From positions 1 through 22,081 of the IMG/VR virus record IMGVR_UViG_3300009132_000044: a stretch of DNA of 22,081 nucleotides; one strand, 5' to 3'. The position numbers and the translations under genes were made by a program. The notes beneath the pieces were generated by a model. That model was not told where the DNA came from. It did no database searches and was given only the letters and a program-made list of their open reading frames with translations. This stretch comes from a virus. The first letter of the stretch is position 1. Every line of letters begins with the position of its first letter. Positions 1-20,093 of this stretch are shown in pieces.

Positions 1-746
1 GCAGACTTCGCCTTGCGCCCAGTCAGCCAGATGCGCAGAGAATATACATAATGCATAGCCTTTCCGCCTGGAGTGATAAAGGGTGTCGTCATGGCGACGA
101 TGCGTGCGTTCGGACCCTGCGGAATATTAGTCTTTAACTGGTTGAGGACCAGAAACGCAGACTTTGTATTCGCAATCGGGATTGTCAGCTTGGACATTCC
201 CTTGGAAAGAATACGCGCCTTCATTGCCATGGTGGATTGAGGATTGAAGTCCCCTTCCACATCGGACACAGTAGGAGTCAGAGCCAGCGAGTCCCAGATG
301 AACAGGGTTCGTTCGGCACCAGAGGCTAAAACAGCCTCGACAGTCTCTAGAACATGCTCCACTGATTGTGCCTGGACATAGATCAGATTCTCTAAATCAC
401 ATCCGGTTCGTTCTAGGAAACCTGGGTCAATCGCTGACTCTGAATCCATATACACCACGTTCATGCCCATTTTCTGGGCATTTGCAGCGCACTGTGCTGC
501 CATAAAAGATTTACCAGTCGATTCAAGACCAGCAATCTCTGTAAACTTGCCAACGGGAATGCCGGCAAGCTGGCCGCGACAAATGATAGAATCCAACCAG
601 CGCGAGCCAGTGGGAATCCATTCTGTAACTTCTGTAGGATTTGCTTCCTTCAGGTTATGGGCGACTTCCACACCCGAAGTTTTGTTGATTAGACTGCGCA
701 GGCCATCAATTGAAATCTTGCCTGCTTTTGATTTACTCTTTGCCAC
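1..746 (-). CDS. uvsX: RecA/UvsX-family recombinase (3' end beyond window)
   Basis: ATP-dependent strand-exchange recombinase that would act on ssDNA in phage recombination and recombination-dependent replication. The visible 248 residues form a RecA core: Walker A GLESTGKS at residues 73-80, the DSES stretch with the likely catalytic Glu near 103, Walker B around 147-153 (TLFIWDS), the LNQLK stretch at 201-205 matching the RecA Gln switch region, and PGGKAMHY near 226-233 matching the TGGNAL region of RecA. The start is GTG at 744-746, preceded by GGAG at a good distance; the frame has a stop upstream with no ATG between. The start overlaps the end of the small membrane protein gene before it. 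The C-terminus runs off the left edge. UvsX rather than cellular RecA is inferred from the phage context, with a gp32-like SSB 1.5 kb upstream. Confidence 0.93.
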   Translation of the reverse strand, partial: MAKSKSKAGKISIDGLRSLINKTSGVEVAHNLKEANPTEVTEWIPTGSRWLDSIICRGQLAGIPVGKFTEIAGLESTGKSFMAAQCAANAQKMGMNVVYMDSESAIDPGFLERTGCDLENLIYVQAQSVEHVLETVEAVLASGAERTLFIWDSLALTPTVSDVEGDFNPQSTMAMKARILSKGMSKLTIPIANTKSAFLVLNQLKTNIPQGPNARIVAMTTPFITPGGKAMHYVYSLRIWLTGRKAKS

Positions 747-1198: not shown

Positions 1199-1417
1199 CT
1201 AAAAATCTTGTTCTGTTATGACCAAACATCCTTCGTTGATCAATCGTTCATAATGACTATGATACCCTAATTCGGACACCGTGTCAAGTACTATTTTTCT
1301 CATAATCTCAGATTTACCGGTGATGACACGAACGGGAAGTTCGTTGTTATACACAAAGGTGTGGATCTTCTGAACAACCCCCTCGTGCCGCTCACCGTGT
1401 AAATCCAAGGTTTTCAT
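1199..1417 (-). CDS. Mini Smr-domain-like protein (72 aa)
   Basis: The protein is essentially one small MutS-related (Smr)-type domain. It carries the LDLHG motif at residues 4-8 with a following His at 11, and an ITGKS loop at 32-36 in the place of the usual TGxG loop, followed by the helix IMRKIVLDTVSELG and a C-terminal strand GCLVIT. Smr domains are nucleic-acid nicking or RNA-cleaving/binding modules; the loop here is TGKS rather than TGHG, so activity is uncertain. The ATG overlaps the TAA stop of the upstream gene by one base (TAATG), indicating translational coupling. Family membership is inferred from motif order and size. Confidence 0.72.
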   Translation of the reverse strand: MKTLDLHGERHEGVVQKIHTFVYNNELPVRVITGKSEIMRKIVLDTVSELGYHSHYERLINEGCLVITEQDF

Positions 1418-1947
1418 TAGTTGAGAGTGAGGGTTCCAGCCTTTGTCTTGACGGAAACATTAAATCCCGACACAAAGGAATCAGCCGAGAAAAACTCAAA
1501 ACGACCTTCCTTGCTCTCGTTGGCAGCAATCAGATCACCTGCTCGGACACGAACCTCGGTTGAGATGTCGCAACGTCCGCGCTTGTAATCATACTGGGTA
1601 GTGGAATACTCAAGCGAATACTCGCCATCATAAATCGTCTCGGCCAGCTTCTCCTGGATATAATCCTCAAAGCCAAAGTCGCCGCGATCATAGTCGTCCA
1701 GCATGTCATTGGCACGCATGTCGTTAAGGATATCATTCCCCTCGGACACTTCGCCGTAAGTGCTGTATACCGGCACTGGCGAAACCAGCAATCCGGCGAG
1801 CATACTGGCGGTACCAGTCTCTCCCACGCTTTCCTGCACGTGGCTCTCGTTAATGTGCCAAACGTCGGCACCTTCACTGTAGCTGAGGGTTACAACGTCG
1901 TCCTCAGAAACATTTAGTTCTCTCAATGTATTTACGATATCACTCAT
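1417..1947 (-). CDS. Acidic protein of unknown function (176 aa)
   Basis: No family is recognised. The 176-residue product is acidic, especially in the middle (NDMRANDMLDDYDRGDFGFE, about 75-97), and has alternating polar/hydrophobic stretches towards the C-terminus that look like beta strands (VSVKTKAGTLTLN). There is no signal peptide or membrane segment. The ATG is preceded by AGGGAGAT at a normal distance. It lies between the histone-like gene and the Smr-like gene, and the shared hairpin element precedes it, so it is probably expressed with the SSB and histone-like genes. A role in DNA metabolism is only a guess from position. Confidence 0.8.
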   Translation of the reverse strand: MSDIVNTLRELNVSEDDVVTLSYSEGADVWHINESHVQESVGETGTASMLAGLLVSPVPVYSTYGEVSEGNDILNDMRANDMLDDYDRGDFGFEDYIQEKLAETIYDGEYSLEYSTTQYDYKRGRCDISTEVRVRAGDLIAANESKEGRFEFFSADSFVSGFNVSVKTKAGTLTLN

Positions 1948-2013: not shown

Positions 2014-2205
2014 CTACCCTGCGTTTTTGGTCTCTTGGACCTCAACGCGAAGCTCTTGAGCGAGCGTCTTAACTTCCTGCATAGCCTTGCGCACGCGAGT
2101 TCCTGCAGCGTTGTTACCGCTGGTGAAGAACTTGTCGTGATCGTCGCGAGTCTCTTCAAGAAGCGTAATCAGCGTCTCAAGTCGGTTCGTTGTCGTAGTA
2201 GTCAT
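2014..2205 (-). CDS. Histone H1 (Hc1)-like small DNA-binding protein (63 aa)
   Basis: After a short Thr-rich start the 63 residues read as the conserved bacterial Hc1-type module: a helix ending DHDKFFTSGNNAAGTRVRK (about 22-40), then MQEVKTLAQELRVEVQETKN. The GNxAAGTRVRK core is the family signature seen in bacterial histone H1-like proteins. It lacks the long Lys/Ala-rich tail of chlamydial Hc1. The likely role is a nucleoid-type DNA-binding or bridging protein acting on phage or host DNA. The start ATG has AAGGAAG eight bases upstream. It lies between the SSB and an unknown acidic protein, with matching hairpins on both sides. The family call is from remembered motif similarity. Confidence 0.75.
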   Translation of the reverse strand: MTTTTTNRLETLITLLEETRDDHDKFFTSGNNAAGTRVRKAMQEVKTLAQELRVEVQETKNAG

Positions 2206-2265: not shown

Positions 2266-3039
2266 TTAGAGCGACCCTAGCTCTGCGAAAGCGGCATCGA
2301 CGGCGTTTCCTTCGCCCTCGGTCTTATTGCCATATCGCGTGGTTTCGGAACTGACAGACTCAGGATCCTCTACCATGCCATTAACGAAGGTGTCCAGGGA
2401 TGCCTGAACATCTGCGCTTGACTTACGCTCAAACAGTCCGGAAAACTCCGGGATGCTGTCAAGCAGTTCGGCACACTTGTCTGGCGTCATGTCAGCACAA
2501 AGTGCAGACGAGCGACGTCGTGGAACAAGCTTGGTCTGAGGGAACGAGGCGCCTGGAGGCTTTCCATACGTCATCGTCAAGTCAGTGCCAGCTTCAGTAT
2601 CGGTGATGTCACCGTACTCAGGATTGAGCACAAGCGTCAAAAGGTTCTCGTAAGCAGTCTTACCGTAGCCCCAGACGCGGATGCCCTTCTCTTCCTCACC
2701 GCGAACCATCACGGGGCTGAAGAAGCGCTGGCGAACGAAGAGGCTCTTCGCCGTCTTCTTGGAATGGTCGTCGTTGTTATCAACGCCCTCTCGCCAGAGC
2801 TGTGAAGCAAACTCGCAAACAGGGCAGTCGTCGCCGAAGTTACGCTTCGGACACAGGAATCCACCCTTTTCTACGTTGTAATGGAACCACATCTCCTTGA
2901 AGGGGTCTCCATCAGCTGTTGGGACAATACGGATGTCTTGCTCACCGTCAACCGGACGCCAGAAAACCGAATCTGAGGAGTTGCCCTCTCCTCTAAGGGA
3001 CGCGAGCTTCTCTCGCATCTTATCTAAGTTAATACCCAT
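2266..3039 (-). CDS. 32: Single-stranded DNA-binding protein, T4 gp32-like
   Basis: Cooperative ssDNA-binding protein that would coat ssDNA at phage forks and recombination intermediates and cooperate with the polymerase and the UvsX-like recombinase. The 257 residues show the gp32 pattern: a basic N-terminal segment (LDKMREKLASLRGEG, residues 5-19) suited to self-association, then FWRPVDGEQDIRIVP (26-40), and a zinc site formed by His53, Cys63, Cys72 and Cys75 (the gp32-type H-C-C-C order). T4 gp32 is about 300 residues, so this is a somewhat short version. The C-terminal part after about 215 is Ser/Glu/Gly-rich, as for the protein-interaction tail. The ATG is preceded by AAGGAGA. A hairpin element lies just behind the stop codon. 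Confidence 0.88.
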   Translation of the reverse strand: MGINLDKMREKLASLRGEGNSSDSVFWRPVDGEQDIRIVPTADGDPFKEMWFHYNVEKGGFLCPKRNFGDDCPVCEFASQLWREGVDNNDDHSKKTAKSLFVRQRFFSPVMVRGEEEKGIRVWGYGKTAYENLLTLVLNPEYGDITDTEAGTDLTMTYGKPPGASFPQTKLVPRRRSSALCADMTPDKCAELLDSIPEFSGLFERKSSADVQASLDTFVNGMVEDPESVSSETTRYGNKTEGEGNAVDAAFAELGSL

Positions 3040-3068: not shown

Positions 3069-3935
3069 TCAACTAATCTCTTGATCGTCTAGTAGTTCTG
3101 CATACGATTGTACCACAGATGTGTACCGAATGCAATAACAATATTTTTGTTCATATGTGGTCTTAAAGACTCCATAAGAAACATTCAAGGCGTCATCGAC
3201 GCGCGACTTTACAAAGTTATTAATCTTTCTAAACAGTGTGCCGTCGTTCTTCAAATCATCCTCGCTAATACCATAATAGTATACCACATCTCGAACTCCT
3301 GTCAAGGGGTAAAACCATTTTTCTGTGTGATTTCTCTCATCCTCGTCCGTAATATCAACAATACCTACGGTTGCAATCCTGCTTGTGTTGGCCGGGTGGA
3401 TGAAATTGCCAATTACGGGCTCTGTGTGCTTAAAAACATTAATCATGTGGATAGTATTCACAATTGCCTGATTAAGTGTATCGTAATATCCAATGATGGA
3501 CATGTCGCCGATGCTGTGCTCCAGAGCGCTGTTGCTTACCATAATCACACTCTCAATAATACCAGAGCGAGCGTACTCTTGCAAGACATTTCTAACAATC
3601 TTTTCCTGCTTCTTCTGAACCTCTGACATAATGGCGGTGTCGCCCTGAATGTAAATCACTGTCAGCCTATTCTTGTTCAGCTGCTCCAGCAGGCGCAGCG
3701 AGCCTCCAGAGATCTGTCCGGATCCCGCAATGATGACACTAACGTCCTCGTTGCTGAATTTTAGTTTCCTACGGAGGTTGGGGAAGTTTTCATCATAGTC
3801 CTCGTGGCTGGACTTCTTTCGGATTGTAATATCCGCTGATTCATCTGTATCAATCCCAAATGTCTCATACTGGGGGAATTTGGAGAATGCTTTGGCAATA
3901 TTGCAACCAGCTTTGCCTAGACCTACCACTATCAT
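3069..3935 (-). CDS. Divergent tubulin/FtsZ-fold protein (288 aa)
   Basis: The N-terminal half follows the layout of FtsZ/TubZ GTPases. Residues 1-12 (MIVVGLGKAGCN) match beta-1 and the T1 loop; 26-32 (FGIDTDE) match the NTD-type T2 region; 66-80 (SVIIAGSGQISGGSL) sit where the tubulin signature GGGTGSG loop and helix H4 belong; 91-97 is a strand; 131-138 (IMVSNSAL) matches the IPND-type stretch; and 150-168 (YYDTLNQAIVNTIHMINVF) matches helix H7. The signature loop is degenerate and no NxDxxD synergy loop is evident, so GTPase and polymerisation are uncertain. The tail is acidic. It overlaps the pyrophosphohydrolase gene by four bases. An alternative is another Rossmann-like nucleotide-binding protein. 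Confidence 0.6.
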   Translation of the reverse strand: MIVVGLGKAGCNIAKAFSKFPQYETFGIDTDESADITIRKKSSHEDYDENFPNLRRKLKFSNEDVSVIIAGSGQISGGSLRLLEQLNKNRLTVIYIQGDTAIMSEVQKKQEKIVRNVLQEYARSGIIESVIMVSNSALEHSIGDMSIIGYYDTLNQAIVNTIHMINVFKHTEPVIGNFIHPANTSRIATVGIVDITDEDERNHTEKWFYPLTGVRDVVYYYGISEDDLKNDGTLFRKINNFVKSRVDDALNVSYGVFKTTYEQKYCYCIRYTSVVQSYAELLDDQEIS

Positions 3936-4249
3936 TCGTCATCTACCCATTCAAGAATAACACCCTGGTCAAAGCCGCCGCGCAGGATGCGCTTAGAAGT
4001 AGCCTGGGCCATGATCATGCTATCCCTGATGTCTAGCTTGTCACAGAGAAAGTGAAAGATCTCCATCACATCAGCTGCCTCCTCTGCGGAAGGGTCCTCT
4101 GTGAATTCTTGGACCTCTTCGTGGAGCTTCTTGAAGGCATAGGAAAGGAGTTCCTCTTCGTCTGCCTTACGCGTGGCAAAGGACTTGCCGTCGTCTGCAA
4201 TGATGCCGGGGATGCGATCCCTTACTAGTTTTTGATAAATCTTCTTCAC
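3932..4249 (-). CDS. MazG/HisE-like nucleoside triphosphate pyrophosphohydrolase (105 aa)
   Basis: The protein is a small all-alpha NTP pyrophosphohydrolase of the MazG/phosphoribosyl-ATP pyrophosphohydrolase superfamily. The start KIYQKLVRDRIPGII (3-17) is characteristic of one housecleaning subfamily. The metal-binding pattern EExxE at residues 44-48 is followed by ExxD at 57-60. Such enzymes hydrolyse NTPs or modified dNTPs to monophosphates; in phages they are thought to clean or shift nucleotide pools. It overlaps both neighbours by four bases, so it is coupled to the DNA polymerase upstream and the tubulin-like gene downstream. The substrate cannot be read from sequence. Confidence 0.85.
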   Translation of the reverse strand: MKKIYQKLVRDRIPGIIADDGKSFATRKADEEELLSYAFKKLHEEVQEFTEDPSAEEAADVMEIFHFLCDKLDIRDSMIMAQATSKRILRGGFDQGVILEWVDDE

Positions 4250-5433
4250 AGCTTTAATTCCTTCATTTCTCCGAGATTCTTACCAGCGGAGACATTAACC
4301 TTGAACATATCATAACGGGTTTTCTTGAAGGTGTCAAGTAGATTTAACAAATCATAACGATCTTCTTCGGCCAAATCAATATAGACCGCATCGTGAATCA
4401 AAAATGAAATATAACTCTTCTTTTCCCTCAACAACTCAAATACCTTGTATGCCTGCTCATGCACCATATCAATAGTGGTGCTTTGAACGATGTAGTTAAG
4501 AGCATGATGCTCATCTACATTCTCTATTATTCTACCATAATCTGTCTCAATTTTACAGCCATCCCAGTACTTATTTCGCACTAAATCCTTGCTATAAAGT
4601 CGCTCTAAGTCCTTGTTTTCTTTACTAGAATACAGCCACGCAAAAGTCTTCGTCTTGGCTTCCTCACGGGTCAGCCGACCTCCAAAAATGTTCTTTACAT
4701 TCCAGTCATGAATGTCATTTTGGGGCTGTTCAACGCCGGCCAATGCCAACAGTACTCTTAGCTCTGCGGCGTTAAAGTCCAGTTCAACCAAATAGTCATT
4801 AACAGGCTGAATACAAGCTCGGAACTCTTTGTTCATTGTCAGAATCGGAAAAGTGTGGGGGTGTGTAGAGAGTCTGCCGGTAATCGTCCCCCATGGGTTA
4901 TAGTCGCATACGTGTCGCACGTTATGCAGGGTGCGGTGGAAGTTCATTCCGCGGACTGAGCTTAAAAGGTGCTTAATGGGGTTGATATTGATGTTTAAGT
5001 GCCGGGAGCGGATATCAACGAGCATCTTATTGAGATTTAGCATCTCGTCATGATTCTTAGGTCTCGGAAGATTCTCAACTACATGTTGGGTAATCTTATT
5101 TTTGGCACTTAGGTACTCATAAAGGAAATATTCGGGCAATACGTCATAAAGGCAATTTTCGTGCAAAGAAAGCTTGGCAGTGTTGAAGGCTCTCAGACAC
5201 GATTTAAGCGTCTTCTTGATCTTTTCCCAGTCCTCCTTCATATCTTCCGGACAAACGTCTGTAAGAGGCGCTCCTTGGCTGTAGATGCGTCCTAGCTCGT
5301 ACGCCTCACCGTGCATATGCTCGGACATCTCCCAAGTGGTCCCTTGGGAGGGTACATTGCCTGTTGAGTGAATGTGGTTGTCGGCGAAATATCCGACGCA
5401 ATCTTTCTTATGATCCAGAACCTGAAAAAGCAA
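4246..5433 (-). CDS. Family A DNA polymerase, polymerase domain only (395 aa)
   Basis: Template-directed DNA polymerase of the Pol I type. Landmarks: TGRLST at 185-190, motif A ELDFNAAELR at 217-226 (metal Asp219), motif B with Arg256, Lys260, Phe264 and Tyr268 at the spacing of the Pol I O-helix, Gln317 in NYIVQSTTID, and motif C IHDA with Asp348. The residue after that Asp is Ala where Pol I has Glu. There is no 3'-5' exonuclease domain: only about 180 residues of thumb-like sequence precede the palm, against about 600 for the Klenow fragment. The start is TTG at 5431-5433, with TAGGAG five bases upstream, overlapping the previous gene's stop. A separate exonuclease gene elsewhere, as reported for Rhodothermus phage RM378, is likely. 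Confidence 0.88.
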   Translation of the reverse strand: MLFQVLDHKKDCVGYFADNHIHSTGNVPSQGTTWEMSEHMHGEAYELGRIYSQGAPLTDVCPEDMKEDWEKIKKTLKSCLRAFNTAKLSLHENCLYDVLPEYFLYEYLSAKNKITQHVVENLPRPKNHDEMLNLNKMLVDIRSRHLNININPIKHLLSSVRGMNFHRTLHNVRHVCDYNPWGTITGRLSTHPHTFPILTMNKEFRACIQPVNDYLVELDFNAAELRVLLALAGVEQPQNDIHDWNVKNIFGGRLTREEAKTKTFAWLYSSKENKDLERLYSKDLVRNKYWDGCKIETDYGRIIENVDEHHALNYIVQSTTIDMVHEQAYKVFELLREKKSYISFLIHDAVYIDLAEEDRYDLLNLLDTFKKTRYDMFKVNVSAGKNLGEMKELKL

Positions 5434-6734: not shown

Positions 6735-9700
6735 TTAGTCCTTCCCGACTTCGTGCCACCAGCCCAGCAACTGTCCGCGCCAGCCCGATCCGTAAATTCG
6801 TTCGCGCTCTAGCTCAACTTCGGCTTGGTGGCGCGAGGCTGCATCCGTTGGATCATCTGCGCGCGCATCGACGCGAGCTTGGTGGCGAGCGGCGGCAATT
6901 CGACGATTGTCGCGCGCGGGGTTTCTTTCAGGAGGGGGAGTTTCCCCAATGACATTAAGCATGGTAAGTGAGTTATCGGGCTGAGCAAACTCGATGGCTT
7001 GATGAAGCGCGTCGATATTAGTATCAAATCCGTCTGGAGTGAGTTTAGATCTTACCCCAGTCACTAGATAGTAGCCGTGAAGTCCGAGATAATCAAGCTG
7101 TTGAGTATCGGCGTCTAATAAGGTTGGGTTAATATAGATATACATGCCATTCTTATATAGATTATTTCCCACTAAATCTAAATTCGCTGAGTAGAGTTCT
7201 CGGAGCTGCTCGGCACCTAGGGCGCCTTCTCGTTGGATCTTAGCTTCTCGCAAGAGGGGCTGGTCTTCTCGGGAGAATTTGAGCGTTTTGAGGAGTCCGC
7301 ATGATGCTCCAATATAATGATGGTAAATACCGCGGTTAAAGTCGGCATCATAGTCTCCTCGGAGATTCCTGGGGCGCCCGTCTGTTGGTAACAACACAAG
7401 TCCTTGGCGGACATGAGATGTGGGAGTAGAGGGAAGAATATCGCTCCGGCGAGCCAATTCCGTAACCTTGGATTCACTAGTTACTTCAAACCAGGATGGT
7501 CCTGAGTTGGTGTCGTCCTGATATGCTACGGGCTGGGCATCAAAGCGTTGTTGTAATGTGAGGTCGAGCCCAAAACAAGCTTTTCCTAGGGCACGTGTGA
7601 CCAGCTCTGCACAAAGTTGTTTAATGAAGTAAAGAAAATAATATGTGGGCCTCATTGGCTTCACCACTTTATTTTTAAAAAACAGCTGGAATGCGTCAAG
7701 GGAAATAGGAATGTCTCCAATATTCATGATATTACTAAACTGATTGGCCGTACTAAATGTCTCCGGATCGCTAGCTATCAACTGCTGCATAAACTGAGCA
7801 TCATTAAGGTTGCCGCAGAGGAGTTCCTCTTCTAGGTCTTTTGCTTGAAATGCTACGAGAGGGTTAATGACATCAACATCCGATAAGAACATATCAAAAT
7901 GAATTTTTTCGCCTCCGTTGTTTTTTTTCATTTGCTCTATAACATTATCAATCAAGTCGCCCAAATAAAAGAAAGGAATTGCTGTGGTATCTGAAGAGTT
8001 GCTAATTTGATCATATCGTGCTGTCTCATTTTCGGAATATTCTTCTGCGGCATTTGCTTCACTGTCATTTTCGGCGTTTCTGATAGCCTCCAATAGTGTC
8101 AGAGTATGTCGGCCGGCGTCAGCGAATTCCAAGGTACCAGTGTTAGGATTCAGGCGCCTTTTTGCGCGAGCGGCTCGTTGTTCTTCGGTTAGTTTGTGCC
8201 AAGGGGTAAGCTGAAATTCACGGGGATCTACCATGAGATAATGAATCTTTGAGTTCGAAGGTTGTGTGAGTTCTTCAAGAAGTTTTCTATACTTAACCAA
8301 CTGGTTTTGTTGTCGTAAGCGCTTCTTCTCTTCTAGCAGCTCTAAGCGCCGTTCGTTTTGCGTACTTGTTCGGTTATCAGCACCGAGATCGTCGATCTCC
8401 TCCAGTTCTTCGTCGATATCTCTGAGTAAATCTTTATGGGATGCGATATCTTGCGCAAAAATGTCTGCCTTAGGCGACGTCAGAAGTCCCGCTATTCCCG
8501 CTTGGTAGTCTATCGTTAGTTCCAGAGAGCCATCCTCATTAAAATTCAAATTATGGCGTACCTGAGTCAAATAGAGAGATACTTTGGTCTGCTCTATAGC
8601 CCAACTGAGGGCTGTTGCGTCTATATTAGAGCCCGGGGCTACCCAATCCTCCAAATTCTGTGGAGCTGACCAGCCAGCAACCACTTTAAGTCGATATTCC
8701 CTACCTTCATAGAGTCTATGCTTATGCTTGGATACTCCGTCGCAAACGGATTCATTCGACCCTAAGGTGCGCTCGCGTTGATCTTCTTTCCTTTTGGCTG
8801 ATGGGGAATTAATCAGTAAATCCAAAAAGTTGGGCTCTTTATCGCCGGCTTGAGAGGCTCCGCGAAAGAAATCATTGATGCTTTGAAAATAAATAACCAG
8901 TTCAGCAGTTATATTATTATCCACTTCTTCAGGCTGAACTCCCTCTAAGGACCAGGAAAAAGATTTAATGCCTGCGCCAGGAATGCGTCCTCGTGAGCCG
9001 TCTAGGATAGCAGCGACATCGGCGGGATCGACAAAGTTGGGGATCATTAACTCATTCTCGATCGGGAGTCGAGTGTCTGGATCTATTTTGGGGGAACCGT
9101 CCTTATTATACTCAACACGATATATTTTTATAGACGGTACCAGTGCAGCATACACATCCGGGCAGAGGCTTAAGATCTCCTTGATCCGTGCGGCGCGAGA
9201 GCTTTGCGGGGAGCCATGATTGAGTATGTTGGGGGTTACTGCGGGTGCGTGGGTCGCGGAGCGCAACTTCATTGTATGCTGGTAGTCTGCCAAAAAGGCG
9301 GGGATGGTCGTTCGGGCGGCAGCTAATTCTTCAATGTTTTCCATTAAATAACATTGCATGTCGAAGGGCGTGAGGTTCCGTGCCAGTCCGGCGAGAACTT
9401 CCTGGAGATCTCTAAGTGAATCTCCCCGGAGGTCAGCGAGCCGCGGCGCCAGGGGGCGATCAGGGAGGGGATCGTCGGGGGCTACTACACCAAAAAAGTT
9501 CAAAATAGCGTCAAACTCTTTCTGCACTCCCGCCTCGTATTCGGGAGTGCCGGGCGCCGGGAAGGGGACCGACTCAGACTCGAAGATGGGCTGCAGGAGA
9601 GAATCATAGTCCTGGAGGCGTTGGGGGGCCATAACTGCATCTATGTGCTGCCTCACAAGCGTCTTCAAAGGGGGTGCGTGGGTATTGGCATAGAAGATCT

Positions 9701-11501
9701 GCGATCCGGCCTTCCACGCCTGATCCAGCCCGGAGCCGACTAAACTGAATGTTGGGTCGCCTAGAGGCTGGCGAACATCAATGTCTCCGGGCACAGCGCT
9801 CTGTTCGCTCGCAGACATATTAGCCCACGGCTCCATGCGAACGGTTCGGATATCATGAATGATACCGTCCATAATCGAAACCGAGTTCTCCCAATCGGCT
9901 ACAGGGTAGATGGGCCTTCGGCTCGGATTCCCGAGGATGCCGGTCTGGGGGAAAGGTAAGAAACAAGAGGCCGGGTCCGTGCAGTCTTTAAGTTCCGGAA
10001 CGTCTGTGCCATTGTTGGACGTCGCTTCTACGACCGCCAGGCTATCGGCTATAAGCTGACGAGTATCTTGCGCCAAGATAAGTGCTAGTTGTTGGTATGC
10101 TTCTGCTAGGTCAGAGGGAACCGTGGGGGTCGCAAGAGCCGTGGTATTAGTGGTAAGGGCGAGACTGGCGTAGTCGAGGGGAGCGCCGGCATTGGTCAAA
10201 CCGTCCGCCCAAAACTGGTATTGATCTGGGATTTCAAAATGCACGCCGTCGGACTGCAGCGTCAGGGTTCGCGTCAGAGGCACCATATCATAATAAGTCA
10301 ATCCGGTGGTGCTGTTCGCTTTTTCCGCTACCCAATCCCGAACAATCTGCCGTGCGTTTTCATACAATCCATCCGGCTCAGTGACCCAAGAGCGCGTCGC
10401 GGTAGCATATGAGGGTCCTAGCCAGCGAACATCGGATACACCCGCCGCAGTAATAGCGTCCATCCATGCGTCGATAAGCTCGTGGTATCTAGACTTGGTG
10501 AGGTTCCCTTTATAAGCGTCTTCAGAGTCATTGGCGCCAAGTTGTATAACAACAACCGTAGGCTTAAAATTGTCGAGGGCATTCAGAATATCCTGAGAAG
10601 GTTTGTCGCCGGATGAGTGGCTCCGGAGTCCCCAGCCGTTCGTGGAAATGACATATGCCTCGGGTTCGGGTCCGGAAGACCCGCGGTGGTCCCAGTATTC
10701 GTAAAGGTGTGTAGGAATCCATCCTTTGAGTGTGGTTTCTGAAACGCCCTGTCCATTGGGTCCTGCAGGTCCATTGTGGTTACCTGTCTGGCTATCTCCA
10801 ATGAGCAGCATACGGACGCCGGATGAGCCACCAGATGTAGTAGCTGTGGCCGGAGAAGTGGAAGGGGCGCCGGTTGTTTGTGATGTACCCCGGGAAAGTT
10901 GCCATGCTTTGTTATTAAGGTACTGTAAAATAGCTGGGTTTGAAAAGAAGGAGTAGTTAGAGGCGTTCCGCGTGCCGTTCGCGGGGAGTCTGCTGCTCTC
11001 GGGATTGGTGATGTCGGAGACGTAAGGTGTCGTCTCCATAAAAGAATATTTTCGTGTGATGTTTGGTTGAGCAACATAATCAACGCCGGTATCATATTCA
11101 ATATCCTCATCCTGGAACGTGGCGCCCGCAGAGCGCGTACTGAGCATTCTAAACTCCTCCGCCTCGACGCGGTAGTCCTCAAAGACTTCGGGGTCGATGC
11201 CCGTGAGGAGTCCGGCCTGACGGAAGACCGTACGATTGTCTTTAAAGCGTGATAAGTCTCCTAGTGCTGCTTCGGCTTGCGTTTTATTCACCACCAAGTC
11301 GTTGGTGGCAGCTTTGATCACATTCCTATGATCGTAATATCCCGCGTCGAATTCACTGGCTTGTCCGGTTCCCACAAACTTATCATAAGCGATCTGGGCA
11401 AACATCGATTTTTGATAGTTGCGGAGCAATTCCCTGAAGGCTTCTTTGACTTCATAGGTGATTATTGATGTTGTAGGGGGTGCTGAACTAGTGGGGGGCA
11501 T
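6735..11501 (-). CDS. Giant baseplate hub protein with an SGNH/GDSL hydrolase domain (1588 aa)
   Basis: A multidomain structural protein. Residues 1-200 are an N-terminal domain. A Ser/Thr/Gly-rich linker (205-228) leads to a complete SGNH hydrolase: GDS at 235-237 (nucleophile Ser237), an oxyanion Gly near 289-291, GAND at 322-325 and DGVH at 418-421 (catalytic Asp418 and His421). Residues 450-840 are unassigned. KSFSWSLEGVQPEE at 846-859, followed by a strand-rich region to about 1005, resembles the hub scaffold of other marine-type phages. A charged coiled coil spans about 1017-1080. The C-terminal 60 residues are very basic/acidic (ARHQARVDARADD). Embedded position suggests that the hydrolase cuts an ester in the cell envelope or capsule during entry. 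T4 gp27 plus gp5 is the nearest functional comparison. Confidence 0.8.
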   Translation of the reverse strand: MPPTSSAPPTTSIITYEVKEAFRELLRNYQKSMFAQIAYDKFVGTGQASEFDAGYYDHRNVIKAATNDLVVNKTQAEAALGDLSRFKDNRTVFRQAGLLTGIDPEVFEDYRVEAEEFRMLSTRSAGATFQDEDIEYDTGVDYVAQPNITRKYSFMETTPYVSDITNPESSRLPANGTRNASNYSFFSNPAILQYLNNKAWQLSRGTSQTTGAPSTSPATATTSGGSSGVRMLLIGDSQTGNHNGPAGPNGQGVSETTLKGWIPTHLYEYWDHRGSSGPEPEAYVISTNGWGLRSHSSGDKPSQDILNALDNFKPTVVVIQLGANDSEDAYKGNLTKSRYHELIDAWMDAITAAGVSDVRWLGPSYATATRSWVTEPDGLYENARQIVRDWVAEKANSTTGLTYYDMVPLTRTLTLQSDGVHFEIPDQYQFWADGLTNAGAPLDYASLALTTNTTALATPTVPSDLAEAYQQLALILAQDTRQLIADSLAVVEATSNNGTDVPELKDCTDPASCFLPFPQTGILGNPSRRPIYPVADWENSVSIMDGIIHDIRTVRMEPWANMSASEQSAVPGDIDVRQPLGDPTFSLVGSGLDQAWKAGSQIFYANTHAPPLKTLVRQHIDAVMAPQRLQDYDSLLQPIFESESVPFPAPGTPEYEAGVQKEFDAILNFFGVVAPDDPLPDRPLAPRLADLRGDSLRDLQEVLAGLARNLTPFDMQCYLMENIEELAAARTTIPAFLADYQHTMKLRSATHAPAVTPNILNHGSPQSSRAARIKEILSLCPDVYAALVPSIKIYRVEYNKDGSPKIDPDTRLPIENELMIPNFVDPADVAAILDGSRGRIPGAGIKSFSWSLEGVQPEEVDNNITAELVIYFQSINDFFRGASQAGDKEPNFLDLLINSPSAKRKEDQRERTLGSNESVCDGVSKHKHRLYEGREYRLKVVAGWSAPQNLEDWVAPGSNIDATALSWAIEQTKVSLYLTQVRHNLNFNEDGSLELTIDYQAGIAGLLTSPKADIFAQDIASHKDLLRDIDEELEEIDDLGADNRTSTQNERRLELLEEKKRLRQQNQLVKYRKLLEELTQPSNSKIHYLMVDPREFQLTPWHKLTEEQRAARAKRRLNPNTGTLEFADAGRHTLTLLEAIRNAENDSEANAAEEYSENETARYDQISNSSDTTAIPFFYLGDLIDNVIEQMKKNNGGEKIHFDMFLSDVDVINPLVAFQAKDLEEELLCGNLNDAQFMQQLIASDPETFSTANQFSNIMNIGDIPISLDAFQLFFKNKVVKPMRPTYYFLYFIKQLCAELVTRALGKACFGLDLTLQQRFDAQPVAYQDDTNSGPSWFEVTSESKVTELARRSDILPSTPTSHVRQGLVLLPTDGRPRNLRGDYDADFNRGIYHHYIGASCGLLKTLKFSREDQPLLREAKIQREGALGAEQLRELYSANLDLVGNNLYKNGMYIYINPTLLDADTQQLDYLGLHGYYLVTGVRSKLTPDGFDTNIDALHQAIEFAQPDNSLTMLNVIGETPPPERNPARDNRRIAAARHQARVDARADDPTDAASRHQAEVELERERIYGSGWRGQLLGWWHEVGKD

Positions 11502-16934: not shown

Positions 16935-19900
16935 TTAATCCTCGAACGATGCTCCAGTGCGCGAGATATTGAAGTCGATTGCAATGTATTCAATAGCTCG
17001 GGTTGGCTTCAAGAAAATCTGTGCATACATAATGTTTCTATCCACCAGCTCTGGTGTGGTTGTGGTACTATCCAGGACAACCTTAAAGTCCGACAAACCA
17101 AAGTTTGTTTTCACATCCTGCAAGAAGGGATTAACCTGAGCAGTGAAGCGCAACCATGTCTGCTTGACGTTGGGGTCAAAGAGCAGACCAGCTGCAATCT
17201 GAGAAATACGCTTCTTGACGAAGATCATCAAGCGTCGCACGTTAATGCGATCCAGTGCCGAAGGTGTAACCTGCAGGGTCTTCTGACCGAAGATTACAAT
17301 ACCCTCTGCTGGGAACTTGGCGATTGGGTTAATGTTGGCTGTATAGAGGTCATCACGGTCCTTGCGGCGCAGCTGGTGAGCTACATCGACAACGGGGATA
17401 CCTGCGGAACCTTCTGTGAGTCCGCCGCGGTTGAAGCCGGCTGGAGCGAACCAGACCTGCGTCTTGCGCTGGGAGCTTGAGAAGGTACCCAAAGCAGGGA
17501 TGGATGGCGGGAGCCATACCATAGCGCCGTTGATGGTGTCGCGGGCACGGACCCATGGGTAGTAGGTGCAACCGTAGGAGGAGTTAAGTCCTCGCGAACG
17601 GAGACCGTTGATAAGAGTTGTAATCGTGCTAGCTTTGTTCAGACGATCCACCGATGTACCCTCTTGTCGTGGTCGGAAAGCATCCGGGAGATCAATAATG
17701 GCTAGAGCGTCTGCACGATCCTCGCATGTATTCACTAAGTGTGTGGTAAGCCCATCATTAGTGAGACCCGGGATGGTGGCCAGGTTCATCTCAACTGCCT
17801 CTGGGTCGGCGATGGTGTCGATTGTTCGTCGAATAGTATTGAGAGTATAGCTCGTTGTCTCGGATGCTCCAATGTTGTTGTTGGAGAAAGCGTCCATATC
17901 TGTGATATTAACACCATCGAAACCGCCATACATTGGAATGCTGAATCGGTCATAACCGGCATCGAGCACACCAGATACTGCACCATTAGCGCGAGTAAGG
18001 GAGCCGCCGCGGGATCCGCCGACTGCCAGATTGTGCGATCCGCTGACCCAGATACCCTGGGAGCCGGAAATATCATCGAGACTGAAGCTCACGGAGCGCT
18101 CAGTGATACCGCTCTGCGCTGCAGCATGCATATCGTCGGCAATGCCGCCGCGGGGGCGGAGAAGATCGATCGTAGAGCGATCGAATACTGTGCCGCCGGC
18201 GGTCTCTGTCGTCTGGAATCCGAAATATGCGTCAGTTCTATTGCTAAGTCCGCCATCCGAAGCACTGAGGCGCAACTCTGGCGCTGGGTAGTATAGGGAG
18301 GCTGACACGGCTGAACCGGAAGCGTAGAAGGGTCCGAAACCATCAGTACTAGATGGAATTGGTCCCGCAGCGCCGCTGACCCAGTTGCCTACGGAGCGCG
18401 AAAGGAATGTTTCGTTATCATACTTAAGCATTCCCTGGAAACCGAAGGGGAGCAGCGAGGAGTCGGCGCCGTCGGCAGCCGAACTCATTACAACGCGAAT
18501 GTGATTAGAGTTGTTGGGCCAGTCTCCTTCTTGGCGCAAGCGGCGAGAAGTAGAGTCCCACACACGCTGCTGTGTTCCGATCTTTCGGGCAACATAGTTA
18601 AGCGAGTTAGGGTTAAGGTCACAGCCATCAAACTGCTCAATAATGCGGACTACATTATCTGAATCACTGAGGTGTCGGACCACCACAGAGAAAGTACCAT
18701 AATCAGTGCTATTGTTAGTCGAGCGCTTGATATCCTGGATGGATACCTTGATGTTTCGGTTAGACCAATCTCCGGGCTGCTCTAGAGCTTCGATGTGGAA
18801 GAGATTTACGGGGTTGGCCGAAGGAGAAAGGCGGCAGCTGATAATGTTGGGCGTGCGGGCCGACTTAAGATCAGTCTTGTAGTTGCCGCCTTCCTTATTG
18901 CTTGTTCCGCCGTCGAGTTTGACGATGGATGCATAGGTTGTGGCGGCTGTATTGCTGGTCACATTAGCATTCAGGTGACGATCAAAGGTTTCACCCAAGA
19001 AATATTTCACCAGAGCGCTAGAGTCGGTAGTTGTTGCATTCGTCAATTGAGGGTTAGTGTTAAAAACCTTACGAATGTAGCGGCTGTCCGTAGTTGTAAA
19101 ATTGAAGGTAGTAGTGAGGTCACTTGATCCCTTATAGTTATTGACTACAAGCTTGAATTCCTTATTAGGTCCGACTGCACGGACAACAGCATTTGCCGCG
19201 GCAACATCAGCGCCATCTGCAGGGGTTACGTCGGTGAAGTCTGCTAGAGCACCACTAAGGGCGAATGTTGTGCCACTATCGGTGCTGTATAAGATTGCTG
19301 CGAGGGCGCCGTCAAGTGACGGCTCTACGCCGCCGCCGAATGATCCAGACAGTGTGTCGCCTGTGCCGGCTGTGACACTCCAGTACGTTGCATTGGAAGA
19401 TGTAAGCTCGCACACTTGTCCGGCAACTCCAGCTAGTGCTGATTTAATGGTCACCACATTGGATGCAGCAGTGGCTGTAAGTTTTGGGGTGGATCCGGAA
19501 TCGTTGATATGGAGAGCTAGATTAGTGGCTAGCTCTGCGTTGGTGGTGCCGATGCCTACCTGGCCAGCGGCGTTGCTGGCGCCGATGGTCAGTAAGAAAT
19601 TACCGCCTGACCCTGTAAGTTGAAGGGTTGTGCCGGTCGAGCCGACTGAAACACAGTCTACACTAGCACTAGCAGCAGTGGCGGCGTCTTCCTCGAAGAC
19701 AACGAGCCCCCATGCGTCGCCATCAGCCTTCCAGCCAGCATTGCCGGCGGCACTTGGCGTTGCATCAACATTGTTGGCGCCCAAGAGGCGGATATAGGTT
19801 AGGGGCGAACTGTTGCGCAAGTATGCCTGTGCAGCATACATGCCATAGGTTGTAGAAGATTTATTCGTTCCCTCTCGCCATACATCTTCGCTGGCTCCAC

Positions 19901-20093
19901 CAGGAGCAGGGGATCCAAAGATATTGACGAACTCTTCAAAAGAATTCACCGTGACGGGGCGTAGGGCTGGTCCGGAGGCGGCGCGTCCGATGACGAGCGG
20001 TCCAATGTTCAAACCGGACTCGGGGATCTGCGAGTTATCGATCTCACTAACAAAAACCCCAGGGGATACGAATCTGTACTTTTTAACTGACAT
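16935..20093 (-). CDS. 18: Tail sheath protein, gp18-like, with inserted domain (1052 aa)
   Basis: Subunit of the contractile sheath. The start KKYRFVSPGVFVSEIDNSQI (4-23) with NIGPLVIGRAASGPA and a VTVNSFEEFVNIFG block is diagnostic; the C-terminus has the conserved LMIFVKKRISQIAAGLLFDPN and AIEYIAIDFNISRTG stretches. Length is about 1050 against about 660 for T4 gp18. The extra mass includes an Ala/Ser/Thr/Gly-rich domain at about 136-255 whose TTNAELATNLALHINDSG and VVTIKS pattern is a repeat-like domain seen in phage structural proteins. The variable outer part of sheath proteins is the expected place for such additions, so a surface or ligand-binding role is inferred. TAGGAG precedes the ATG. 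Confidence 0.95.
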   Translation of the reverse strand: MSVKKYRFVSPGVFVSEIDNSQIPESGLNIGPLVIGRAASGPALRPVTVNSFEEFVNIFGSPAPGGASEDVWREGTNKSSTTYGMYAAQAYLRNSSPLTYIRLLGANNVDATPSAAGNAGWKADGDAWGLVVFEEDAATAASASVDCVSVGSTGTTLQLTGSGGNFLLTIGASNAAGQVGIGTTNAELATNLALHINDSGSTPKLTATAASNVVTIKSALAGVAGQVCELTSSNATYWSVTAGTGDTLSGSFGGGVEPSLDGALAAILYSTDSGTTFALSGALADFTDVTPADGADVAAANAVVRAVGPNKEFKLVVNNYKGSSDLTTTFNFTTTDSRYIRKVFNTNPQLTNATTTDSSALVKYFLGETFDRHLNANVTSNTAATTYASIVKLDGGTSNKEGGNYKTDLKSARTPNIISCRLSPSANPVNLFHIEALEQPGDWSNRNIKVSIQDIKRSTNNSTDYGTFSVVVRHLSDSDNVVRIIEQFDGCDLNPNSLNYVARKIGTQQRVWDSTSRRLRQEGDWPNNSNHIRVVMSSAADGADSSLLPFGFQGMLKYDNETFLSRSVGNWVSGAAGPIPSSTDGFGPFYASGSAVSASLYYPAPELRLSASDGGLSNRTDAYFGFQTTETAGGTVFDRSTIDLLRPRGGIADDMHAAAQSGITERSVSFSLDDISGSQGIWVSGSHNLAVGGSRGGSLTRANGAVSGVLDAGYDRFSIPMYGGFDGVNITDMDAFSNNNIGASETTSYTLNTIRRTIDTIADPEAVEMNLATIPGLTNDGLTTHLVNTCEDRADALAIIDLPDAFRPRQEGTSVDRLNKASTITTLINGLRSRGLNSSYGCTYYPWVRARDTINGAMVWLPPSIPALGTFSSSQRKTQVWFAPAGFNRGGLTEGSAGIPVVDVAHQLRRKDRDDLYTANINPIAKFPAEGIVIFGQKTLQVTPSALDRINVRRLMIFVKKRISQIAAGLLFDPNVKQTWLRFTAQVNPFLQDVKTNFGLSDFKVVLDSTTTTPELVDRNIMYAQIFLKPTRAIEYIAIDFNISRTGASFED

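Follow-up and report, generated by a model that had tools for sequence, protein, structure and literature searches.

A 22-kb virus record of a contractile-tailed phage (the window, i.e. the whole stretch of 22,081 nucleotides) carries a gene for a protein with a predicted tubulin fold. We regard this gene as conserved and as core to the replication module of a large lineage of uncultured viruses of bacteria. Known phage tubulins either form filaments as accessory proteins of jumbo phages or are parts of plasmid-like partition systems. The family described here escapes Pfam, PHROGs and NCBIfam and appears to have lost the canonical filament contact. Tubulin relatives may serve DNA replication in a role other than the usual filament, which would widen the possible uses of the tubulin fold and offers a test of whether tubulins function without T7-driven polymerisation.

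The 288-residue open reading frame pointed out in a first-pass annotation, which gave no strand, is present; it starts with ATG and lies on the minus strand (3935-3069; Table 1). The remainder of the record holds sheath, tube and T4-type baseplate genes. Beside these tail genes, a 1588-aa protein (6735-11501, minus strand), whose relatives vary widely in length, has a GDSL/SGNH hydrolase domain embedded in it, at about residues 232-422. The tail sheath (16935-20093, minus strand), at 1052 aa, is roughly double the normal length and carries a large insert ahead of its conserved C-terminal part.

Table 1. Features of the predicted tubulin-fold gene and of the genes around it
Feature	Position	Strand	Basis
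Tubulin-fold protein (predicted), 288 aa	3069..3935	-	ORF call, homologues, AlphaFold and structural matches
T1 nucleotide loop GLGKAG, residues 5-10	3906..3923	-	alignment
T4-position loop GSGQISGG, residues 71-78, modified tubulin signature	3702..3725	-	alignment
LQEYARSG, residues 118-125, end of H5, family hallmark	3561..3584	-	alignment
N135 (T6), putative guanine-pocket Asn	3531..3533	-	alignment with FtsZ
H7 start YYDTLN, residues 150-155	3471..3488	-	alignment; aromatic 151/N155 = E. coli FtsZ F183/N187
T7-equivalent linker, residues 172-183	3387..3422	-	alignment and models
Short acidic C-terminal tail LLDDQEIS, near clade only	3072..3095	-	alignment
Small putative NTP pyrophosphohydrolase (MazG-like)	3932..4249	-	weak basis; 4-base overlap with tubulin gene
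DNA polymerase A-like gene, 395 aa	4246..5433	-	4-base overlap with pyrophosphohydrolase gene
gp32-like single-strand DNA-binding protein (SSB)	2266..3039	-	adjoins tubulin gene downstream
RecA-like recombinase, cut by window end	3..746	-	homologous cluster

Predicted fold and profile similarity

AlphaFold modelled the window protein with 36 relatives at a pLDDT of 88.3 (pTM 0.88), and a distant relative (about 40% identical) with 28 sequences at 92.7 (pTM 0.90), the five models of the latter all exceeding 91. The predicted models show the two-domain tubulin fold joined by the core helix H7. When the two models were compared with known structures by Foldseek and VIA-align, all matches listed belonged to the tubulin superfamily. 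Foldseek against PDB gave best E values of 9e-13 and 4e-12, and the best 50 matches were tubulin-superfamily chains throughout; CetZ was matched with Z 24.5 and 24.8 over 258-261 residues (rmsd 3.0-3.1), TubZ with Z 22.2 and 23.5, and FtsZ with about 22. In a viral structure library, the best matches were phage FtsZ/tubulin-like entries, headed by an uncultured-phage “FtsZ Cell division GTPase”. Given two models, structural matches over the whole length and the PhuZ profile match described below, the tubulin/FtsZ fold suggested by the first-pass annotation is near certain as a prediction, and neither a different fold nor another Rossmann-like family arose as the best match. The predicted fold marks the family as a new and divergent tubulin-superfamily branch, outside the motif-defined FtsZ, TubZ and PhuZ.

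A weak TrkA_N match at residues 2-35 (E 0.001; 2.9e-5 for the best among relatives) might point to an ordinary dinucleotide-binding (NAD-binding), TrkA-N-like Rossmann protein with no tubulin ancestry. We find this hardly credible and rejected it on structure: the match is confined to the first beta-alpha-beta unit, the structural matches span residues 1-285 including H7 and the C-terminal domain, and the models contradict it.

Sequence searches of Pfam, PHROGs, NCBIfam and PDB gave no significant tubulin match to the family, and the window protein had no match to Pfam PF00091 above the cut-off. Profile-profile comparison (hhalign) of the family with PhuZ gave 81% (score 45.6), a link as strong as that between PhuZ and FtsZ (70.5%, score 43.0). 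The matched stretch is the Rossmann-like region T1-T5, and among the controls, which included no unrelated dinucleotide-binding profile, 14 unrelated profiles reached at most 0.71% and reversed profiles stayed below 0.5%. The comparison of the family with the FtsZ profile was null (0.4%).

Motifs kept and lost

The landmarks listed in the first-pass annotation do occur in FtsZ order in the window protein, namely GLGKAGCN (T1), GIDTDE (T2), IIAGSGQISGGS (T4 position), VSNSAL (T6), YYDTLNQAIVNTIHM (H7) and the tail LLDDQEIS. To describe the family, 202 distinct near-full-length relatives were aligned and conservation was counted over 203 rows, the window row being entered twice. The T1 glycines G5, G7 and G10 are present in 202 of the 203 rows, N135 of T6 in 189 and N155 of H7 in 190, and an aromatic residue (Y, F, H or W) stands at position 151 in 188; at the T4 position, GxGxI[ST]G replaces GGGTG[ST]G. 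In a forced alignment with FtsZ, which is non-significant overall, N135 falls on the Asn of the IPND stretch and N155 on E. coli FtsZ N187, both of them known nucleotide contacts. Judged from the alignment, the T1 GxGxxG and the guanine contacts of T6 (Asn) and H7 (aromatic/Asn) thus all appear to be kept, and GTP binding by the family protein is likely because T1, a modified T4, N135, N155 and the aromatic residue at 151 are retained.

In tubulins, the T7 acid and H8 activate GTP hydrolysis in the next subunit and stack on it. The catalytic acid of NxDxx[DE] is not conserved in the family, and the T7 region (residues 172-183) is among the more variable stretches, with a mean commonest-residue frequency of 0.50 versus 0.55 over the full length; NVDFAD, by contrast, reaches 0.97-1.0 in the set of FtsZ sequences used for comparison. 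For the window protein, the sequence bears out the earlier remarks that the GGGTG[ST]G signature is broken and the NxDxxD loop absent. An E or D occupies position 183 in 136 of 203 rows (the window protein has N), and this acid could act like that of T7 in part of the family. In both predicted models, on which the absence of H8 rests, no helix of 4 residues lies between H7 and S7 (H8) and no helix between S7 and S8 (H9). The protofilament contact of FtsZ, tubulin and phiKZ TubZ is formed by T7 and S9 together with the base of H8 (PMC3678025). A retained pocket with T7 and H8 lost would make the product a guanine-nucleotide-binding protein unable to activate its neighbour's GTP in the normal way.

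The best conserved motif alongside T1 is the family-specific LQEYARSG (Q119 and S124 in 202 of 203 rows, R123 in all 203). The loops T3 and T5 are unlike those of FtsZ, and no DNA-binding feature was found in the protein.

A nucleotide face that is kept together with a T7/H8 face that is gone is also the shape expected of a one-sided cap, and phages often inhibit FtsZ (e.g. PMC11897509). The protein might therefore be a decoy that docks with its nucleotide face under host FtsZ and stops division. This is quite unlikely in our judgement, since T3, T5 and the null profile comparison speak against a close likeness to FtsZ and the fixed position in the replication operon is left unexplained.

The replication operon and its distribution

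Relatives of the protein are encoded at no fewer than 588 IMG/VR loci, with identities down to about 38-40% among the matches listed. The gene order at about 100 loci is polymerase A - (pyrophosphohydrolase) - tubulin - SSB - small genes - RecA - (deaminase) - 5' exonuclease - DnaB helicase - ribonucleotide reductase, in which the deaminase and the ribonucleotide reductase were identified by reading. So that the sampling would not be circular, a further set of loci was retrieved through profiles of the polymerase and of SSB, and in all distinct loci of this kind with both genes (125 of 125) the tubulin gene lies between them on the same strand. The first-pass annotation had suggested looking for the same gene beside polymerase in other phages, and had placed it between polymerase and SSB with a 4-base overlap with the upstream gene (3932-4249); the window has both features, and the conserved gene context backs the replication-linked role that was proposed from them.

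Unrelated genes occupy the tubulin position in L341 and L428, two loci with polymerase or SSB relatives; these are apparent true absences that are probably losses or rearrangements, and the other missing cases are contig ends. An inserted DNA methyltransferase-like gene parts the tubulin-SSB pair in L054, L056, L116 and L118. Since all 125 anchored loci hold the gene, and isolated phages whose replication module is the same (Microcystis phage Mel-JY01 and Flavobacterium phage immuto) have other genes there, the tubulin gene is a lineage-defining part of the replication block. The 428-aa gene before SSB in Mel-JY01 was considered as a divergent tubulin and ruled out on reading, as it has neither the T1 nor the T4 motif.

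The median dN/dS is 0.06 over 81 family pairs (0.02-0.08 for pairs with the window, 0.02-0.04 for the two closest), and this strong purifying selection means that 3069-3935 is not a chance ORF. The gene evolves at the pace of the polymerase, with mean pairwise identities of 56% and 57% respectively. The word “degenerate” used in the first-pass annotation holds for T4 and T7 but not for the gene itself, which shows no decay, is near-universal in its lineage and is under strong selection.

The MazG label given earlier to the overlapping upstream gene rests on a single tblastn match (E 2e-8) between a relative and a phage gene whose annotation reads NTP pyrophosphatase; Pfam and NCBIfam give the gene no name. 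The tubulin-fold protein might be a nucleotide sensor tied to dNTP supply with this putative pyrophosphohydrolase as its partner, as the overlap, the frequent neighbourhood of the two genes and the ribonucleotide reductase and deaminase genes downstream in relatives would suggest. It is nevertheless improbable, for in several relatives with the tubulin gene, including many of the distant ones, no pyrophosphohydrolase gene was found.

Several other features of the operon were observed. The polymerase A-like protein (4246-5433, minus strand) is just 395 aa long and shows no obvious exonuclease domain; this size is maintained in most relatives, where the 5' exonuclease is a separate downstream gene. 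A strong promoter-like site (3305-3278, minus strand; TTGACA-16-TATACT with TG) lies inside the tubulin gene, in its 3' part, some 240 bases ahead of SSB, which it might drive separately. Just downstream of SSB, a Histone H1-like Hc1 protein (2014-2205, minus strand; PF07432, E 4e-21) is a possible nucleoid protein, and small proteins resembling it (cluster C13) often occur in the operon. A conserved 176-aa protein with no family assigned (1417-1947, minus strand) belongs to cluster C7, which has 55 loci.

Among 50,697 records of isolated phages, tblastn found no match to the window protein and only chance-level matches to two distant relatives. A scan of 84,980 prokaryote genomes from GTDB, whose reach is limited because only two short peptide patterns were used, gave no family member, and neither did a profile search, run without a positive control, of 150 genomes of one bacterial phylum. 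Searches of the open literature, which does not take in most subscription journals, found no description of the family. The cyanophage marker psbA was found in none of 15 contigs, and two large contigs encode a single tubulin each, with no second tubulin gene. In seven large, possibly incomplete contigs, we found no multisubunit RNA polymerase and no match to chimallin (a search without positive control), so a nucleus-forming lifestyle is not indicated.

These results bear on whether the protein is a working cytomotive tubulin like PhuZ, with a rewired catalytic loop and with filaments that would position phage DNA. PhuZ is the closest profile match, the predicted tubulin fold covers the whole length, the near clade has a short acidic tail like that of PhuZ, and two thirds of the sequences have an acid at 183. 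We nonetheless think it unlikely: T7 varies and the models have no H8, whereas T7 and the base of H8 are protofilament contacts elsewhere (PMC3678025); the seven contigs gave neither a multisubunit RNA polymerase nor, in the search without positive control, chimallin; and PhuZ is dispensable, one third of its phage family being without it (PMC10299810), whereas the present gene is near-universal in its lineage.

Proposed role and comparison with known systems

Taken together, the retained pocket, the lost T7/H8 and the fixed place in the replication operon make a GTP-controlled element of the replication centre the likeliest role. We tentatively propose that a GTP-binding tubulin has turned into a component of the replication centre, unable to form a canonical GTPase protofilament. 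This divergent member of the superfamily would bind guanine nucleotide in its N-terminal domain and, without the T7 acid and H8, would neither activate GTP normally in the next subunit nor stack on it. Its gene stands among those of the phage replisome (polymerase A, SSB, RecA, 5' exonuclease and DnaB helicase), and the protein would most likely work in the phage replication centre as a component or scaffold under GTP control, where the LQEYARSG surface may contact one or more partners and any assembly would proceed via a non-canonical interface. A shared operon does not amount to interaction, and the gene order may reflect timing alone. Somewhat doubtful is the broader statement that a tubulin has here left the cytoskeleton, binds GTP, is unable to build T7-type protofilaments and belongs to the regular equipment of a viral replisome or of a scaffold of the replication centre, LQEYARSG then being a novel functional surface.

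Among known systems, PhuZ of nucleus-forming jumbo phages (201phi2-1 gp59 and relatives) is likewise phage-encoded, has the tubulin fold and is of comparable size (315 vs 288 aa), and the profile similarity in T1-T5 and the acidic tail of the near clade add to the likeness. The family differs in lacking the T4 signature and the T7 acids, in the absence of H8 and H9 from its models, and in its place in a replication operon, near-universal in its own lineage and with no detected chimallin; besides, by tblastn at E 1 it has no match in the phage collection in which 141 records match PhuZ. Archaeal CetZ is the best structural match among those listed, at 12-16% identity, but is cellular and larger. 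TubZ, which serves plasmid and phage segregation, also ranks high structurally; the family protein is about 100 residues shorter, and no iteron-like repeat array of the TubZ type was seen next to its gene. FtsZ shares the fold, and its T6 Asn and H7 aromatic-xxx-Asn align with the family, which in contrast lacks the NxDFAD loop, GGGTG[ST]G and a significant profile match. FtsZl1 is another divergent branch of the superfamily in which parts of the canonical machinery for filaments cannot be recognised (Makarova and Koonin 2010, PMC2875224). It is cellular, and retains the GGGTG[ST]G loop with no recognisable T6-H7 or FtsZ-type C-terminal domain (PMC2875224), whereas the viral family keeps T6-H7 and, by alignment and models, loses T7-H8.
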